Below are positions 41,697-56,547 of a stretch of DNA of 64,000 nt, one piece after another (position 1 is the stretch's first letter; each line of letters begins with the position of its first letter). The DNA comes from Psychrobacter sp. JCM 18900 (GTDB lineage Bacteria; Pseudomonadota; Gammaproteobacteria; Pseudomonadales; Moraxellaceae). The DNA is taken from contig NZ_CAJHBL010000001.1 in the NCBI RefSeq assembly GCF_904846625.1, positions 248,001-312,000 on the forward strand, in the 5' to 3' direction. Under the pieces are notes generated by a model. It was given only the letters and a program-made list of their open reading frames with translations, was not told the DNA's origin and made no database searches. Position numbers and translations under genes: made by a program.

Positions 41697-42269
41697 TTAA
41701 CGCGGTACTAGCAAACGATTATGAACTTCTTGTTCAAGCTTGGTCAAACCATGACTGCGACCACGTTCCATCGCCGTATCCATCTTACGTCCACGCAACC
41801 ATCCTGCCCTCAGCGCAATTGCAGCTCCCACTCTATTGCCCGACCCACAGTGCATAGCGACTTTTTTACCATGGTGCTGGCGTAATACATTATCAAACGC
41901 CAATATCTTAAGCTGCTTTAGCTCTTTAGCACCGCTGATAGGTAGCTGTTCATAGTGCATACCTGCTCGCTCAACTGCTGATGCCTCATCAAAGCTTAAT
42001 TCGTCATCAGGCTGCAAGTTGATGACCAGCTCGACGCCCGCTTTCGCTAAAGCCGCAACTTTTTCGTCATCTAATGCACCGCACACGATAGTGTTTGCAT
42101 CTGGACGAAAATAAGGCTCAAAGATATCGGCCAAATCAACGCCATTATCGGCACTGATATGAATGTTAGCGCCGCTATCATTAGCGGCAACCGTATTAGT
42201 CGCTATCGAGCTATCTGTTTGATCTACGTCTATCGCGTTTTCTTCTGAAGGCATGTTTTGTGAAGTCAT
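41697..42269 (-). CDS. DUF442/BLH-type tyrosine phosphatase-like protein
   Basis: 190 aa. The first 50 residues are Asp/Ser/Asn-rich and probably disordered. The phosphatase-like fold follows: FEPYFRPDANTIVCGALDDEKVAALAKAG, then GVELVINLQPDDE, GMHYEQLPISG, and the loop AMHCGSGNRVGAAI, where Cys and Arg are four residues apart (CX4R) instead of five as in classic tyrosine phosphatases. That CX4R loop is the mark of the DUF442/BLH group found in sulfide-oxidation and biofilm-linked proteins. Substrate unknown. It lies alone, 58 bp after the MaoC gene on the same strand. Confidence 0.78.
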   Translation of the reverse strand: MTSQNMPSEENAIDVDQTDSSIATNTVAANDSGANIHISADNGVDLADIFEPYFRPDANTIVCGALDDEKVAALAKAGVELVINLQPDDELSFDEASAVERAGMHYEQLPISGAKELKQLKILAFDNVLRQHHGKKVAMHCGSGNRVGAAIALRAGWLRGRKMDTAMERGRSHGLTKLEQEVHNRLLVPR

Positions 42270-42327: not shown

Positions 42328-43242
42328 CTACTTGCTGTCGCTCTTTAGGGTTACAACACCCGCCAAATGCGGTTTATTGTTTTTAGAGCTATACAGTCCA
42401 AACTCACAAGTATCATCTACGTTTGTAAGCTGGGCTACTGGCTCAGCAATCAGCTCTACTTCAGCTGGCAAAAAGATAGGCAGCTTAAATGAGACGTCAA
42501 TCGTATAAGCATCAGGCAAGTCACCCATTAGAGCAAGGCACTTAGCCTTTGACCACATACCGTGTGCGATCGCTTTAGGAAAACCAAACGCGCGTGCTGA
42601 TAGTGGATGCAAATGAATCAAGTTAAAGTCGCCTGAGACAAAGGCATAACGACGACCGATATCTTCCGGCACTTCAAAAATGCTATGGACACCTTCTTCG
42701 TTTACTTCAGGCTTGACCATAACCGGACGCGGCGCGCTCTTCTTATCTTTACTGCTAGGTTTTTTGCTACGTGATAAATAAGTCGACGTACCTTCCCAGA
42801 TGACTTCCTCTTCTGACTTTACAATAGTCACAAAGTCAAACTGCTGACCTTGGGCATGATCGCGCAAGTTATCAAAAGTGACCGACATTGCTACCGTTTC
42901 ACGCTCTCCAATCGGGCGATACTGGGTGACGCTATTATCGACATGGACAAGACCTAACATGGCAAATGGGAATGGCTCTTTGACCATCATGTTCATTTGC
43001 AGCGTCTGTGACAATACCGAGAAATAAGTCGCTGGCACTTTGCCATCATCAGCAAAACCGCAAATTTTGCGATAGTCATCTAGGTTTTCTTGATCGATAT
43101 GCAAGTCATCTACATAGTAAGTAGATTGTGGCAACTGGTCTCTACTGACCTTGCCACCATTACCGATAGGCAATAAGCTTTTGACAATATTGGCGTAAGT
43201 GGTGTGCGCTTTTGGCAACGCATCATAATGTTTGTCTGACAT
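42328..43242 (-). CDS. MaoC-like (R)-specific enoyl-CoA hydratase (HtdX-like)
   Basis: 304-aa double-hotdog protein of the MaoC/HtdX kind. The hydratase motif is in the second hotdog: YAFVSGDFNLIHLHPLSARAFGFPKAIAHGMWS (about residues 203-235, in parts), with catalytic Asp and His in GDFNLIHLH. The N-terminal hotdog (1-170) has no such motif and provides substrate binding. Family knowledge: reversible hydration of trans-2-enoyl-CoA or ACP to (R)-3-hydroxyacyl. Its neighbours are a long FabG upstream and a thiolase beyond, the trio also seen as htdX-fabG4-fadA2 in mycobacteria. A weak terminator in the 325-bp gap after fabG suggests separate transcription. Confidence 0.85.
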   Translation of the reverse strand: MSDKHYDALPKAHTTYANIVKSLLPIGNGGKVSRDQLPQSTYYVDDLHIDQENLDDYRKICGFADDGKVPATYFSVLSQTLQMNMMVKEPFPFAMLGLVHVDNSVTQYRPIGERETVAMSVTFDNLRDHAQGQQFDFVTIVKSEEEVIWEGTSTYLSRSKKPSSKDKKSAPRPVMVKPEVNEEGVHSIFEVPEDIGRRYAFVSGDFNLIHLHPLSARAFGFPKAIAHGMWSKAKCLALMGDLPDAYTIDVSFKLPIFLPAEVELIAEPVAQLTNVDDTCEFGLYSSKNNKPHLAGVVTLKSDSK

Positions 43243-43566: not shown

Positions 43567-44967
43567 TTATGCACCAAGTAAGCTTTGACCACAGACGCGA
43601 ACCGTGTTGCCATTTAGACCGCCAGACGCAGGTGACGCAAACCATGCGATAGTCTCAGCCACATCTACTGGCAGGCCGCCTTGGCTCATTGAGTTCATGC
43701 GGCGACCAGCTTCACGAATAGCAAATGGAATGGCTTCTGTCATTTGGGTTTCGATGAAGCCAGGAGCGACTGCATTGATCGTCATGCCTTTAGCATTGTC
43801 TTCTAATTGCTTGGCAGTTGCGTTAACCAAACCAATTACCCCAGCTTTAGAAGTGGCATAGTTGGTCTGACCCATGTTGCCCGCGATACCTGAAATTGAC
43901 GACACACATACGATACGTGCGTTTTCTTTCAGTACGTCATTGTCCAACAAGTAGCGGTTCAATCTAGCGATACTGCCCAAGTTGATATCGATGACCATGT
44001 TCCACTTTTTCTCATCCATCTTAGCCAACGTCTTATCACGAGTCACGCCAGCATTATGGATAATTGAATCTAGGCCACCTCGTTTCTGGGCAGCGTCAGC
44101 GATTTCTGCACCAGCGTCTTCACTAGTGATATCTACTGTCAAAGCAGAGCCGCTGATTTCGCTAGCAACTTTTTGTAGGTCAGCTTGCTGCTGTGGTACA
44201 TCTAGACAGATAACATGAGCCCCTTCACGAGCCAATACACGAGCAATAGCTTCGCCAATACCGCGACTTGCGCCAGTCACCAGCATAGTCTTACCACCCA
44301 AAGGCTGGTTCCAGTCAACATCAACTGAGCTGCCTTTACTGACACGTACTACTTGTCCTGATACATAAGCTGAACGAGCTGAGGTAAAAAAGCGTAAGGT
44401 TGAATCTAGGTTTTGCTCTGCGCCTTCTTCAACATAAATCAGCTGCGCTGTGATACCGCGCTTAAACTCTTTACCCACTGATTTCACAAAACCTTCAAGC
44501 GAGCGTTGAGCCATTGCAGATTCAATATCAGTGATGTTCTCTGGCGTACGGCCAACCACAACCACACGGCCTGATTTTTCTACGCGGCGTGCAACTGTAT
44601 GGAAAAACTCGTAAAGCTCTTTTAGCTGTTCAGCATTGCTGATATTACTGGCATCAAAAAGCAGTACTTTGAATTGATCATCGCTACCCGTGTTGGCTTT
44701 TGCCTCAACGCCTGCATCAGCAAGTGCGTCTTTGATGTCATCACTGCTGTTTACATATACTTCGGCATGGACGTCTGACAGGATACGGGCAACAGATTCA
44801 CTGACGCTCTTGTCATCACCAGTAGCACGGCCAACCAATACGCTACCACGCACCAAACGCTCACCGCTTTCAAAACGATCAAGCGTCGTTGGCATCGGCA
44901 AACCTAAGTTTTTTGCTACTTTTTTGCCAATAGAAGATTGAACAAAATCACCGTAACGGTCTGACAT
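43567..44967 (-). CDS. High-molecular-weight 3-oxoacyl-ACP reductase (FabG4-like)
   Basis: 466-aa two-domain SDR; ordinary FabG is about 245 aa. The N-terminal half (to about 205) is a degenerate Rossmann-like domain without the Gly motif. The catalytic half contains VTGASRGIGEAIARVLA (about 222), NAGVTRDKTL, and SSISGIAGNMGQTNYATSK with the Tyr-x3-Lys pair near 365, then a PGFIETQM loop. The start at 44967 is set by AAGGATTATATT just before the ATG; 25 further codons upstream are not supported. It matches mycobacterial FabG4, which reduces 3-oxoacyl-CoA. It is divergent from the thiolase and upstream of the MaoC gene. Confidence 0.9.
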   Translation of the reverse strand: MSDRYGDFVQSSIGKKVAKNLGLPMPTTLDRFESGERLVRGSVLVGRATGDDKSVSESVARILSDVHAEVYVNSSDDIKDALADAGVEAKANTGSDDQFKVLLFDASNISNAEQLKELYEFFHTVARRVEKSGRVVVVGRTPENITDIESAMAQRSLEGFVKSVGKEFKRGITAQLIYVEEGAEQNLDSTLRFFTSARSAYVSGQVVRVSKGSSVDVDWNQPLGGKTMLVTGASRGIGEAIARVLAREGAHVICLDVPQQQADLQKVASEISGSALTVDITSEDAGAEIADAAQKRGGLDSIIHNAGVTRDKTLAKMDEKKWNMVIDINLGSIARLNRYLLDNDVLKENARIVCVSSISGIAGNMGQTNYATSKAGVIGLVNATAKQLEDNAKGMTINAVAPGFIETQMTEAIPFAIREAGRRMNSMSQGGLPVDVAETIAWFASPASGGLNGNTVRVCGQSLLGA

Positions 44968-45516
44968 AATATAATCCTTATAATTAATGATTCGTATAAT
45001 AATAAAAAATGCAATGAATCTATTATATAGAGACATTGACATCGTAATTATTTAAATTTAGTAAATCGCCTCAAAACTAGCCTAACTATACACTTCCCTT
45101 ATAAACAAGTCCAAAAACAGATAATGTCTACAACAATCTGTAAACAAGTCAGTATACAAGCCAGTCGTTTTTAGCAGCGTTAAGCGCCACTATAACATGT
45201 TAAAATCTGACCTATAGGTTATGGCATACTTAATTATTGATAACAATATATTATCAAACGTACTGTTATGCAATGCTAATATTTCTTACTAGTCAGTCTA
45301 TTAGAGCGATGCGTCATGGTCATGAATCTACTACCTACCTCATACAAGCGTCACATCGTTTGCTAAAGAGATACATTAAGTGAATAAAAAACGCCTTATG
45401 ATAAACAGCTGTATTGCGTAATAAATGATAATATTTGCTTGTATAAAATAACTTAACTATTTTTTATTGTTACCTATCACTTTTTACTTCTACCCATACT
45501 TTTTAAGGATAATATT
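44968..45516. promoter_or_regulatory. Divergent 549-bp regulatory region (fabG4-like / thiolase)
   Basis: Long, AT-rich intergenic region with three perfect inverted repeats: TAACATGTTA (45193-45202), ACCTATAGGT (45210-45219), and TTGATAA-N7-TTATCAA (45237-45257). They are spaced within 65 bp near the middle, as expected for a shared operator region between two divergent genes. The region is unusually long for this window. The regulator is not identified. Confidence 0.5.
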
Positions 45517-47031
45517 ATGAGTAATAAAAACAATCATCCAGATAGCCCTGTTGTTGAAAGTACAGTTGTTAAAGCAACGGATACAAAATCAGATACAGCA
45601 AAAAAAGAAACCGCTGCAAAAAATACCTCGACTAAAGACAATAGCGCTAAAGATGCTGCTAGCAAAAAAGCGGTCGATGAAAAAGTGGAAACCACTGCTG
45701 CTAAAAAACCTGCTCCAGCTAAAAAAGCCAGCGAAACCAAACCAGCTTCGAATCTGAATCGTGTTGCTATTTTAGGTGGTAACCGTATTCCATTCGCACG
45801 CTCAAATGGATCATACGCTGATGTTAGCAACACAGACATGTTAACAGCTGCATTGGACGGCTTGGTTGAGCGCTATAACCTACAAGGCGAAACCGTAGGC
45901 GAAGTGGTATCTGGTGCAGTCATGAAACTTAGCCGCGACATCAACCTTACTCGTGAAGCGACATTGAATACTGCGCTAAACCCACATACGCCAACTTATG
46001 ATATTTCACAAGCTTGCGGTACTGGCTTACAAGCGACCTTTGCTTCTGCTAACAAGATTGCACTTGGTCTGATCGATTCGGCAATCACTGGCGGTGTAGA
46101 CACTACGTCTGACGCTCCTATTGCTGTCGGCGATGGCTTACGTAAAGTACTGATCAAACTTGGTGCAGCAAAAGACAACAAACAACGTCTAAAAGCACTA
46201 ATGGGTCTAAACCCAAAAGACTTAATCGATTCACCGCAAAATGGTGAGCCGCGCACTGGTTTATCAATGGGCGATCATCAAGCGATTACCACGCTTGAGT
46301 GGAATATCAGCCGTGAAGCGCAGGATGAGCTTGCATTTAACAGCCATCAAAACCTAGCACGCGCTTATGACGAAGGTTTCTTTGACGACTTGATCACGCC
46401 ATACAAAGGCCTAACTCGTGATAACAACTTGCGTCCAGATACTACATTAGAAAAACTGGGCAAATTAAAGCCAGTTTTTGGTAGAAAAAATGCCAATCCA
46501 ACGATGACAGCTGCCAACTCTACGCCGCTTACTGATGGTGCTTCTTGTGTACTACTAGGTACTGATGAGTGGGCAAAAGAGCACGGTCTAAAACCACTTG
46601 CTTATATCGTCCATCAAGAAACCGCAGCGGTAGATTTCATTGGTAAATCTGGTACTACAGAAGGCTTACTAATGGCACCAGCTTATGCGGTACCACGTAT
46701 GCTTGAGCGCGCTGGTCTGACTCTACAAGACTTTGACTTTTATGAGATTCATGAAGCCTTTGCTTCACAAGTACTATCAACCTTAGCTGCTTGGGAAGAT
46801 GAGAAATTCTGTGAAGAGCGCTTAGGCTTAGATGCACCACTAGGTTCTATCGATCGTAGCAAATTAAACGTAAACGGTTCATCACTAGCGGCAGGTCATC
46901 CATTTGCAGCAACTGGTGGCCGTATTTTAGCTACTGCTGCTAAATTATTGGATCAAAAAGGTTCAGGTCGTGCACTTATTTCTATCTGCGCAGCAGGTGG
47001 CCAAGGCGTAACTTGTATCCTAGAAAAATAA
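45517..47031 (+). CDS. Acetyl-CoA C-acyltransferase (FadI/FadA2-like thiolase)
   Basis: Thiolase, 504 aa. The nucleophilic Cys167 is in SQACGTGLQAT, the His in DFYEIHEAFASQVL, and the second active-site Cys in SICAAGGQGV at the C-terminus. The sequence LNRVAILGGNRIPFAR begins the fold only at about residue 79: the first 75 residues are a Lys/Ala/Thr-rich tail with PAPAKKA-like units, like histone H1 or phasin tails, not part of known thiolase folds. AAGGATAATATT precedes the ATG. It diverges from the FabG gene; with the MaoC gene the trio can carry out chain cleavage or elongation of acyl-CoA. The terminator lies 65 bp downstream. Confidence 0.9.
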   Translation: MSNKNNHPDSPVVESTVVKATDTKSDTAKKETAAKNTSTKDNSAKDAASKKAVDEKVETTAAKKPAPAKKASETKPASNLNRVAILGGNRIPFARSNGSYADVSNTDMLTAALDGLVERYNLQGETVGEVVSGAVMKLSRDINLTREATLNTALNPHTPTYDISQACGTGLQATFASANKIALGLIDSAITGGVDTTSDAPIAVGDGLRKVLIKLGAAKDNKQRLKALMGLNPKDLIDSPQNGEPRTGLSMGDHQAITTLEWNISREAQDELAFNSHQNLARAYDEGFFDDLITPYKGLTRDNNLRPDTTLEKLGKLKPVFGRKNANPTMTAANSTPLTDGASCVLLGTDEWAKEHGLKPLAYIVHQETAAVDFIGKSGTTEGLLMAPAYAVPRMLERAGLTLQDFDFYEIHEAFASQVLSTLAAWEDEKFCEERLGLDAPLGSIDRSKLNVNGSSLAAGHPFAATGGRILATAAKLLDQKGSGRALISICAAGGQGVTCILEK

Positions 47032-47097: not shown

Positions 47098-47135
47098 AAA
47101 AAAATGCCCTTTAATTTATTTAAAGGGCATTTTTT
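47098..47135. terminator. Intrinsic terminator of the thiolase gene
   Basis: ATGCCCTTTAA (47104-47114) pairs with TTAAAGGGCAT (47120-47130), extended by A and T runs on both sides. It lies 65 bp past the thiolase stop. The in-frame ATG upstream of ppk2 is inside this hairpin and is not its start. Confidence 0.9.
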
Positions 47136-47217: not shown

Positions 47218-48297
47218 ATGGGTAAGACAAAAATTTTATTAAGAAAAATGAGGCAAGTCATTTTTGGCTCTGAAAAACTGGTGATGACAGAACCGCTTGC
47301 AACCGCTGATTTTCAATCTCTAACGACTGAGGAGGATTTAGATCGGTACCATCAGGAACAAGCTATTCTTACTGAACGCATCGAAAAAGACATTCTTGAT
47401 GATGATTTACGTCGAAAAATGCACCAAGACTTAATCGATACATATGATGAAGAACTAGAAAATGAAATAGATGACTATGCACGTGACTTTCGTTTTAACG
47501 GACGTGAGATGAGCGAGCAAGAAAAACTGGATCGACGCACCTACTTTCAAGAGTTGGTACGACTACAGCGAGAACTGATAAAACTACAAGATTGGGTCGT
47601 TGATCGCGGTGAACGTATTGTCGTTATCTTTGAAGGGCGGGATTCTGCTGGTAAAGGTGGTGCCATTAAACGCATTACCCAACGATTAAACCCACGCGTG
47701 TGCAGGGTAGCTGCCCTGCCGGCTCCTACTGAGCGTGAGCAAACGCAGTGGTACTTCCAACGTTACGTGGCCCACTTGCCTGCAGCAGGCGAAATCGTAT
47801 TGTTTGACCGTAGTTGGTACAACCGCGGAGGCGTTGAGCGTGTCATGGGGTTTTGTACTGACGCGCAATATGAGGAATTTTTTCAATCAGTACCAGAGTT
47901 TGAGCGTATGCTCGTACGCTCAGGCATTCGCTTAGTAAAATACTGGTTTTCTATCACTGATGATGAGCAACATGCACGATTTATGAGCCGAATATATGAT
48001 CCGCTTAAGCAGTGGAAACTCTCACCAATGGACCTACAGTCGCGCCGACGCTGGGAAGATTACACCAAAGCAAAAGAAACCATGTTTGAGCGCACTCATA
48101 TTCCTGAAGCACCCTGGTGGGTAGTTGAGGGCAATAATAAAAAACGTGCTAGGCTGAACTGCATTGCCCATTTGCTCGACCAAATCCCTTACAAAGAAGT
48201 GCCTCGTGACGAAATTGAGTTACCCAATCGCAAACGCGATGATGAGTACTACCGCGAACCTATTCCCGATGATATGTATGTGCCGCCTCGTTATTAA
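47218..48297 (+). CDS. ppk2: Polyphosphate kinase 2 family protein (class I type)
   Basis: 359 aa. PPK2 uses polyphosphate to phosphorylate nucleoside diphosphates or runs the reverse; class I members act on ADP or GDP and are about this length. Walker A is FEGRDSAGKGGAIKRI (about 140), Walker B is FDRSWYNRGGVERV (about 198), and a lid module follows with DPLKQWKLSPMDLQSR. The start at ATG 47218 has AAAGGTAATATTT upstream; 38 in-frame codons before it run through the thiolase terminator and are rejected. The gene is followed by a strong terminator. Confidence 0.92.
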   Translation: MGKTKILLRKMRQVIFGSEKLVMTEPLATADFQSLTTEEDLDRYHQEQAILTERIEKDILDDDLRRKMHQDLIDTYDEELENEIDDYARDFRFNGREMSEQEKLDRRTYFQELVRLQRELIKLQDWVVDRGERIVVIFEGRDSAGKGGAIKRITQRLNPRVCRVAALPAPTEREQTQWYFQRYVAHLPAAGEIVLFDRSWYNRGGVERVMGFCTDAQYEEFFQSVPEFERMLVRSGIRLVKYWFSITDDEQHARFMSRIYDPLKQWKLSPMDLQSRRRWEDYTKAKETMFERTHIPEAPWWVVEGNNKKRARLNCIAHLLDQIPYKEVPRDEIELPNRKRDDEYYREPIPDDMYVPPRY

Positions 48298-55398: not shown

Positions 55399-56547
55399 TT
55401 AAGCCTGAGCTTCTATATGTTTAATCAACGCAGCTAATTGATCTTGATTGTGGAAAAATATCTCAACACTACCTTGACCATCTTTTTTATGTTTTAGTTT
55501 GACTTCAGCACCAAGCATGTCTGTCAATCTTTGGGTCAAACGCTCTACATCACGAGATTGTACTTGTTCAGCACGATTGATTTTGGGCGCTGGCTGCAAG
55601 ATTGATTTGACCAACTTTTCAGCTTCTCGCACGGTCATACCGCCATCGATAATCTTTTGCGCGATGATAGGTTGCTGTTCAGAGGACAATGCTAAAAGTG
55701 TACGAGCATGACCCATATCTAGCGCGCTGTTGGCTAAATGATCTTTTACTGTATCATGCAGCTGATTTAAACGAAGTAGATTCGATACTGTCGTACGCGC
55801 CTTACCAACGACTTCAGCAATCATGGCATGACTCATACCAAACTCCGTATGAAATCGCTGCAATGCTGCCGCCTGCTCAATCACTGACAAGTCTTCGCGC
55901 TGAATGTTTTCAATCAATGCTAGGGCAATCGCTAACTCATCCGATAAAGCACGCTCAATCGCAGGGATAACTGCTTTTCCTGCCATTTTTGCTGCGCGCC
56001 AACGGCGTTCACCAGCGATAATTTCGTGAGTGACAAATGCTTCACTCTTATCTTCATTTGCCAATAGCGGGCGGATAACGATAGGCTGCATCACGCCATG
56101 CTGCTCGATAGAAGACGCTAATTCTGCAAGTGCTGTCTCACTCATATCACGACGAGGCTGGTACTTACCTGCTTGCAAACGTGTGACATCGATCTGGACA
56201 AGGCTAATCTGATCTTCGGTTGCACTCGTATCTGCACTATTGCCACGCGATTTGTTGAGCGACGCCTTGCTGGTAGCACGAGATGAACGTGGCGCACGAG
56301 CGCTATTCTCGCTAGCAGCATCGTTAGTAGTCTTCGCAGATAATTTTTTACTGGCTTTTGTCGGAGTGATATCAGGCGCTATATCTGTGGACACAGTATT
56401 TACAGGCGCATTAGTATCTGGCGCAGCATTTTCACGCGCCACCATGTCGTCTTGCAAGGCAGAGGCGGTAATTTGCTTTTCTTTTTTGATTGACCCTAAT
56501 AAGGCATCTAAGCCCCGATTAGCAGCCAACCCTCTTTTCTTCGCCAT
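55399..56547 (-). CDS. parB: Chromosome partitioning protein ParB
   Basis: CTP-gated DNA clamp that loads at parS and separates origins. 382 aa, longer than the usual 290-310. The N-terminus has AANRGLDALLGSI, which contacts ParA; the CTP-binding GERRWRAAKMAG motif lies near 180 and the helix-turn-helix in MSHAMIAEVVGKARTTVSNLLRLNQ (about 235-260, in parts). Residues about 40-110 are an Ala/Ser/Lys/Thr-rich linker that accounts for the extra length. AGGATAGGTAATC precedes the ATG. parA is 158 bp upstream. No canonical parS was found in the window. Confidence 0.95.
   Translation of the reverse strand: MAKKRGLAANRGLDALLGSIKKEKQITASALQDDMVARENAAPDTNAPVNTVSTDIAPDITPTKASKKLSAKTTNDAASENSARAPRSSRATSKASLNKSRGNSADTSATEDQISLVQIDVTRLQAGKYQPRRDMSETALAELASSIEQHGVMQPIVIRPLLANEDKSEAFVTHEIIAGERRWRAAKMAGKAVIPAIERALSDELAIALALIENIQREDLSVIEQAAALQRFHTEFGMSHAMIAEVVGKARTTVSNLLRLNQLHDTVKDHLANSALDMGHARTLLALSSEQQPIIAQKIIDGGMTVREAEKLVKSILQPAPKINRAEQVQSRDVERLTQRLTDMLGAEVKLKHKKDGQGSVEIFFHNQDQLAALIKHIEAQA

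Follow-up and report, generated by a model that had tools for sequence, protein, structure and literature searches.

The FadA2-type thiolase encoded in the window, i.e., the whole 64,000-nucleotide stretch of DNA from Psychrobacter sp. JCM 18900 that was analysed, carries in front of an ordinary FadA2-type core an N-terminal tail of 77 residues (positions 45517-45747). The tail is not uniform and consists of three parts, namely a conserved tip, a hypervariable linker and a basic patch (Table 1). In this enzyme of fat metabolism, a conserved tip combined with an otherwise free tail points to a small, flexibly leashed recognition tag, not to a histone-like or polyphosphate-binding element.

Table 1. 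Features of the thiolase gene and its neighbours (positions in the window)
Feature	Position	Strand	Basis
Acetyl-CoA C-acetyltransferase/FadA2-type thiolase with N-terminal tail, 504 aa, ATG start	45517..47031	+	
Conserved tip, residues 1-19, MSNKNNHPDSPVVESTVVK, putative docking or recognition element	45517..45573	+	pN/pS
Hypervariable mixed-charge linker, residues 20-57	45574..45687	+	pN/pS ~0.6; pLDDT ~26-33
Basic patch adjoining core, residues 58-77, ETTAAKKPAPAKKASETKPA	45688..45747	+	Composition; pN/pS 0.42
Thiolase core, residues 78-504	45748..47028	+	Pfam, NCBIfam, PDB matches and AlphaFold
Shine-Dalgarno TAAGGA, 7 nt 5' of ATG	45504..45509	+	Read from sequence
Intrinsic terminator, 16-pair stem and T run, between thiolase and ppk2	47099..47135	+	
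Polyphosphate kinase 2, start probably at 47218, preceded by AAAGG	47218..48297	+	Start read from sequence
Divergent high-molecular-weight FabG, FabG4-type	43567..45042	-	NCBIfam match from residue 26
MaoC-type dehydratase, HtdX-like position	42328..43242	-	

The assignment of the core relies on several matches. Thiolase_N and Thiolase_C of Pfam both score over the cut-off, the former from residue 83, the NCBIfam model PRK09268 (acetyl-CoA C-acetyltransferase) matches residues 74-504 with 803 bits (cut-off 539), and the best PDB match in a phmmer search is FadA2, 7xly (E 9.7e-170, query residues 77-503). Residues C167, H412, H461 and C491, which we take to be the catalytic residues of thiolases, are invariant in 46 sequences. 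The remaining thiolase matches in the same genome lie in open frames of 405-409 aa, and the tail is unique to the FadA2-type copy. A Shine-Dalgarno-like AAGG stands no more than 16 nt 5' of the start in 100 of the 103 Psychrobacter orthologues; one of the other three begins at a contig edge, and L094 and L107 do not have it.

The tail contains 16 K, 14 A, 10 T, 8 S, 6 D, 6 V, 5 N, 5 P and 5 E, thus 11 acidic residues (D+E) against 16 K, and is devoid of Arg, aromatic residues, Cys, Gly, Ile, Leu and Gln; the string KKPAPAKKA corresponds to residues 63-71. In the AlphaFold2 model residues 1-76 have a pLDDT below 50, and the core has values from above 80 to 90 for most of its length. The orthologue and its tail were found in 105 of 105 Psychrobacter genomes. 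Two draft copies (L081 and L112) are frameshifted, with the tip motif in another frame, and were left out of the tail counts; in the other 103 the tail is in frame and comprises 39-271 residues, with a median of 110. In the clade of the window the reading frame is preserved across 26 different tail lengths. The window thiolase has no second in-frame ATG between start and core, the sole in-frame GTG of its tail (residue 57) has no Shine-Dalgarno sequence, and ATG, GTG and TTG are absent from the 14 codons preceding the core, i.e., there is no inner in-frame start with a Shine-Dalgarno sequence here. The earlier, sequence-only reading of this gene had described a histone-like, Lys/Ala/Thr-rich tail without thiolase counterpart and had named loss in relatives or an internal start near residue 78 as possible objections. 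Its account is partly supported. The tail is real, since similarity to thiolases begins at residue 74, 77 or 83 depending on the database, it is kept throughout the genus as counted above, and no start codon was found near residue 78. The composition and the KKPAPAKKA string also stand, and so does a basic patch that recurs in relatives; the uniformity does not, since tip, linker and patch differ, and the histone-like label, the polyphosphate target and the link with polyphosphate kinase 2 (PPK2) fare worse, as described below.

The selection acting on the tip was estimated with 60 distinct loci of the window's clade, picked by core identity alone (at least 94%). The pN/pS ratio was 0.054 for codons 2-19 and 0.044 for the core versus 0.567 from residue 20 to the core. 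The pS values of the three regions were comparable (0.498 in codons 2-19, 0.524 in the core and 0.57 in the rest of the tail). The tip is thus under protein-level purifying selection close to that of the core in this clade, and the linker is without selection of this kind, free in length and sequence. A second set of loci was chosen with a regular expression on residues 1-7, a selector which itself favours conservation there (pN/pS 0.041 in that set). In this set codons 5-7 have a pS of 0.97 and a pN of 0.000, and such near-saturated silent change together with zero replacement indicates a constraint on the peptide, not on the DNA bases. The boundary of the tip is sharp in the same set: pN rises from 0.005 in codons 17-19 to 0.26 in codons 20-22 and to 0.36-0.55 beyond, up to codon 31. 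Genus-wide (102 loci), pN/pS was 0.257 for the tip, 0.131 for the core and 0.692 for the rest of the tail, so that the tip is looser than the core yet far tighter than the linker. Identical sequences were excluded, and L110, which has a frameshift in the core, was left out of the core-identity and genus-wide sets. Of the 103 tails, 93 have the motif [SN]P[VI][VIT]x[STAG][TASV][VL] within their first 25 residues and 10 do not, and the pattern of the tip, [SN]P[VI][VI]x[ST]TVVK, is strand-like.

The tip was not found in other proteins of its own genome, neither with a protein query nor with a 12-row profile, and the thiolase alone matched; one additional match of 9 residues (E 0.6) in a 50-aa frame is at chance level. 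A search of PDB chains did not reveal the tip either. In the AlphaFold model, built for the monomer only and from a shallow alignment, the tip is not docked on its own core.

The gene neighbourhood is that of a FadA2/FabG4/HtdX set, in which fabG4 is divergent and adjoins the thiolase gene. The true start of fabG4 is probably near 44967, because the mechanically called frame has 25 residues ahead of the family match, which sets in at residue 26. All 101 Psychrobacter loci with room for it have a divergent fabG4 neighbour, as does every locus examined in Acinetobacter, g7 and g9. A table of PMC10699116 gives the same divergent fabG4 arrangement for Mycobacterium, Rv0242c being next to Rv0243, and this paper places FabG4 and FadA2 in the lipid-inclusion proteome of mycobacteria and rhodococci. 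The HMwFabG of A. baumannii has been crystallised, and PMC8007833 reports that without it growth in rich medium and the formation of pellicles are impaired. A small protein similar to dual-specificity phosphatases is encoded beside maoC (41697-42269, minus strand); its Pfam matches are weak and below the cut-off.

The interpretation that we prefer, tentatively and at somewhat less than an even chance, is that the gene encodes a FadA2-type thiolase whose docking peptide sits on a flexible tether, the latter being optional where a lineage has two starts. It starts from what the data establish: the anatomy of the tail, its genus-wide presence, the selection on the tip, the unselected linker and the predicted disorder. 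The pN/pS values and AlphaFold together reveal a short motif that is conserved and a linker that is variable and disordered, and from this pattern we infer that the tip would bind one specific partner. Most simply, this would be FabG4 or MaoC, further enzymes of the same short-chain 3-hydroxyacyl-CoA route, or else a lipid-associated surface. The two enzymes come first, as their genes lie alongside that of the thiolase; lipid inclusions come second, since PMC10699116 reports actinobacterial FadA2 and FabG4 in the inclusion proteome. The linker could let the thiolase tetramer reach the partner from several arms. No publication on a disordered N-terminal extension of a bacterial thiolase, or on an N-terminal extension of a Psychrobacter acetyl-CoA acetyltransferase, was found in the open-licence PMC literature.

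Related genera show that the tail may be dispensed with. Among the Acinetobacter genomes, 6 of 139 have no strong orthologue; of the 133 others, 126 have a tail-length frame, matched from query residue 37 or earlier, and in 7 the match does not begin before residue 68. All 61 distinct tailed Acinetobacter loci that were read have an inner ATG in frame, three residues ahead of the reference position for the core; they belong to related species and do not represent 61 independent events. At a fixed distance from this ATG, AGG occurs in all 61 and AGGA in 58. These loci were not random picks (67 were given, 6 identical ones were dropped, and the tailless L136 and L137 were excluded). The residue pair encoded at the inner site varies (Q-D, Q-E, Q-V, Q-G, K-E, K-D), and its first codon always ends in G; elsewhere, Gln/Lys codons ending in G make up 75 of 513 (14.6%) in the Acinetobacter linker and 363 of 2434 in the core. 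A comparable inner start, an ATG with a Shine-Dalgarno sequence, was also found in eight Psychrobacter genomes (L094, L096, L099, L100, L101, L105, L107, L108). The window's clade, which comprises 73 distinct cores and has a support of 0.919, does not include them. Support for their own grouping is low (0.268), and the early Psychrobacter branches L098 and L104 are tail-only. Records L138/L220 and L108/L129 are apparent duplicates. Only the short form was found in g7 (5 loci) and in the Moraxella-like g10 (15 loci), 20 of 20 in total, which means that the tail is dispensable for catalysis. A regular expression found no relic of the tip upstream of the tailless Moraxella and g7 genes. In a minority of Acinetobacter, namely L137 (Acinetobacter brisouii), L136, G252, G238, G211, G266, G181, G245 and G187, the tail has apparently been lost with the inner start kept.

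Under the docking interpretation, one gene in Acinetobacter and in the eight Psychrobacter genomes might give tailed and tailless subunits through two starts, so that tethering would be adjustable; in the window's clade the inner start would have been lost and the thiolase would always be tailed. An extended version, according to which attachment of the docking peptide to its partner is set by the choice of start, the inner ribosome site of Moraxellaceae FadA2 (preserved in Acinetobacter despite changing residues) yields leash-free subunits and mixed tetramers tune how strongly the enzymes of the fatty-acyl pathway assemble, with the window lineage always leashed, is in our opinion rather unlikely. 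Homology between the tips of Psychrobacter and Acinetobacter, which look alike by eye (PVVEST and PAVENS), was considered and rejected, as the real median equalled the shuffled median in a shuffle test. The tips are not detectably homologous, and the two-start account may therefore join two independent tails. The tail may be ancestral and have been lost twice, or it may have arisen twice.

The strongest rival of the docking interpretation, doubtful as it is, holds that the tail is driven by charge: the basic patch, together with the wholly basic Acinetobacter linkers, would bind an anionic partner (polyphosphate, nucleic acid, membrane lipid or an acidic acyl carrier protein), and the tip would be secondary. 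At positions -1 to -15 before the core K+R amounts to 0.23-0.36 and D+E to 0.02 per residue (103 tails). A net positive charge over the last 25 residues was seen in 92 of the 100 Psychrobacter tails that have 60 or more residues and in 55 of 61 Acinetobacter tails; the charge of the whole tail is +5 to +12 in 61 of 61 of the latter. N-terminal extensions elsewhere in the thiolase family, found in 15 of 54 other loci, have 15-46 residues and 0-1 acidic residues and are all net positive, so that a basic arm beside the core seems to recur. Nine of them belong to Marinobacter (L141, L144, L150, L154, L158, L170, L176, L181, L182) and six to other lineages (L155, L159, L160, L172, L178, L192); L143, a GC-rich artefact frame, and L140 were excluded. 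Against the charge-driven reading, the uncharged and strictly conserved tip is left unexplained, a net basic patch is missing from 8 of the 100 Psychrobacter tails, and there is no coupling with PPK2. The total charge of the tail ranges from -26 to +13 in the 103 orthologues and is zero or negative in 37. The longer Psychrobacter tails also contain sequence islands, YDSIAELK-like in 20 of 103 and NVFDT in 9 of 103. In L127, residues 44-102 hold YDSIAELK-like and KKAKLK-like islands, and AlphaFold gives a 37-residue helix at 66-102.

Binding of polyphosphate, to which the sequence-only reading had pointed on account of PASK-like Lys clusters and the nearby PPK2 gene, is mostly unsupported. As defined in PMC12345225, a PASK is a stretch of 20 residues that contains a Lys and in which D/E/S/K make up at least 75% (15/20). 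The best such stretch of the tail has 12 of 20, short of the formal definition, which 24 of the 103 orthologues satisfy. According to PMC12077175, confirmed targets of Lys-polyphosphate modification (KPM) have 9 K per 20 residues, four of them consecutive, and non-binders have 5 and 7; the best stretch of the window tail contains 6 K in 20, with a longest run of 2 and no KKK, and thus falls below the Lys density of confirmed KPM targets. A relaxed PASK-like threshold, which recovered 3 of 7 E. coli binders in PMC12345225, would be passed by the tail with its 60% D/E/S/K, a point in favour of the charge-driven reading, and for this reason some binding of polyphosphate is conceivable. The recurring basic patch may likewise play an electrostatic role. 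The closeness of PPK2 is not evidence, as a strong intrinsic terminator separates the two genes (the mechanically called ppk2 frame begins inside it) and tailed Acinetobacter have no adjacent PPK2. In Psychrobacter, PPK2 adjoins the thiolase in 85 of 100 loci with room and was not found in 15, 5 further loci being without room; it was not found beside the thiolase in 16 of 16 tailed Acinetobacter-like, 5 of 5 g7 and 16 of 16 g10 loci (one duplicate). Among the loci examined, this adjacency was seen only in Psychrobacter. The polyphosphate/PPK2 link is weakened by the terminator, by the Acinetobacter loci and by the motif counts together.

The other suggestions of the same reading did not hold. 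For a histone-like tail, the HC2 model (PF07382) gave a weak compositional match (E 0.0038) of 17.8 bits, below the gathering cut-off of 40, and both the 16 K opposed by 11 D+E and the variable charge speak against it. Binding to storage granules was rejected: a profile search for the PHA synthase domain PF07167, positive in a Caulobacter control, found none in the own genome, and the wax-ester synthase domain, present in 157 of 159 genomes of the family, occurs in tailless genera too and hence does not track the tail.

Bacterial N-terminal degrons combine a short, conserved motif at the terminus with a disordered stretch of variable sequence behind it. The tip could accordingly be a degradation or quality-control signal for a protease or adaptor, the linker serving as an unfolded initiation site, and the lifetimes of tailed and tailless forms would then differ. 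The architecture matches, and a two-start gene would in that case set stability, but nothing ties the tip to a protease or a named degron, and we regard this explanation as improbable. Recognition by a protease also fits the pattern of conserved tip and free linker; the docking step is what we infer beyond that pattern.

The chance is similarly slim that the tail is an entropic bristle which maintains the solubility of a crowded or cold-active enzyme, only length and composition being important. Its hypervariable, hydrophilic nature and its range of 39-271 residues would suit such a role, and a ParB-like protein of the window (55399-56547, minus strand) has, between its N-terminus and the ParB core, a K/A/S/T-rich stretch of a composition similar to that of the thiolase linker. 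However, the selection on residues 1-19 would require a separate reason, and Acinetobacter, mostly mesophilic, is tailed as well.

It is very improbable that the conserved 5' stretch is a DNA or mRNA element, such as an operator or translation-initiation region, with the peptide incidental. For Psychrobacter this is already contradicted by the pS values of the window's clade, close to the core's in the motif and higher still in codons 5-7. A search of Rfam gave no match, and a search for operator palindromes upstream gave nothing convincing. The situation is different in Acinetobacter, where pS of codons 2-12 is 0.183 versus 0.617 in the core (20 loci) and a constraint at the nucleotide level is indicated, so that an element of this kind may exist at the outer start. 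The sequence TGC.TGG.aAAGCCTTATG is near-invariant at that start (L130-L135, L193-L202, L207-L212).

There is next to no chance that the tail is an annotation artefact with the true start at the core, as the tailless orthologues of g7 and g10 might suggest, since the window has no internal start codon near the core, which refutes this idea here, and the frame kept over 26 tail lengths and the selection on the peptide also oppose it.

A docking peptide at the tip, if confirmed, would provide a handle on the cellular organisation of the widespread and poorly understood FadA2-FabG4-HtdX enzymes in Acinetobacter and Psychrobacter, which are easy to work with in the laboratory. The natural series of one enzyme in tailless, one-start tailed and two-start forms makes control of assembly by the choice of start site testable.

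Several known systems may be compared with this thiolase. The N-terminal proteoform pairs of Salmonella, as presented in PMC11005335, arise from one gene with two in-frame starts, as in the Acinetobacter and some Psychrobacter orthologues; here, by contrast, the two starts were deduced solely from sequence conservation, and the window gene has one. Like the Lys-rich or PASK-like polyphosphate-binding tails of PMC12345225 and PMC12077175, the window tail is disordered and rich in Lys, with 60% D/E/S/K in its best 20 residues, but it lies below the formal PASK threshold and the confirmed Lys density, and its charge is not conserved. The likeness to histone H1-like HC2 (PF07382) is weak and compositional, the window tail being of mixed charge and not polycationic. 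The PRK09268 model agrees with the window core and does not cover the tail. The closest solved relative of the core is FadA2 of the Rv0243 type (PDB 7xly); the match begins at chain residue 9, hence 7xly has no comparable tail, and Mycobacterium shares the divergent fabG4 neighbourhood.
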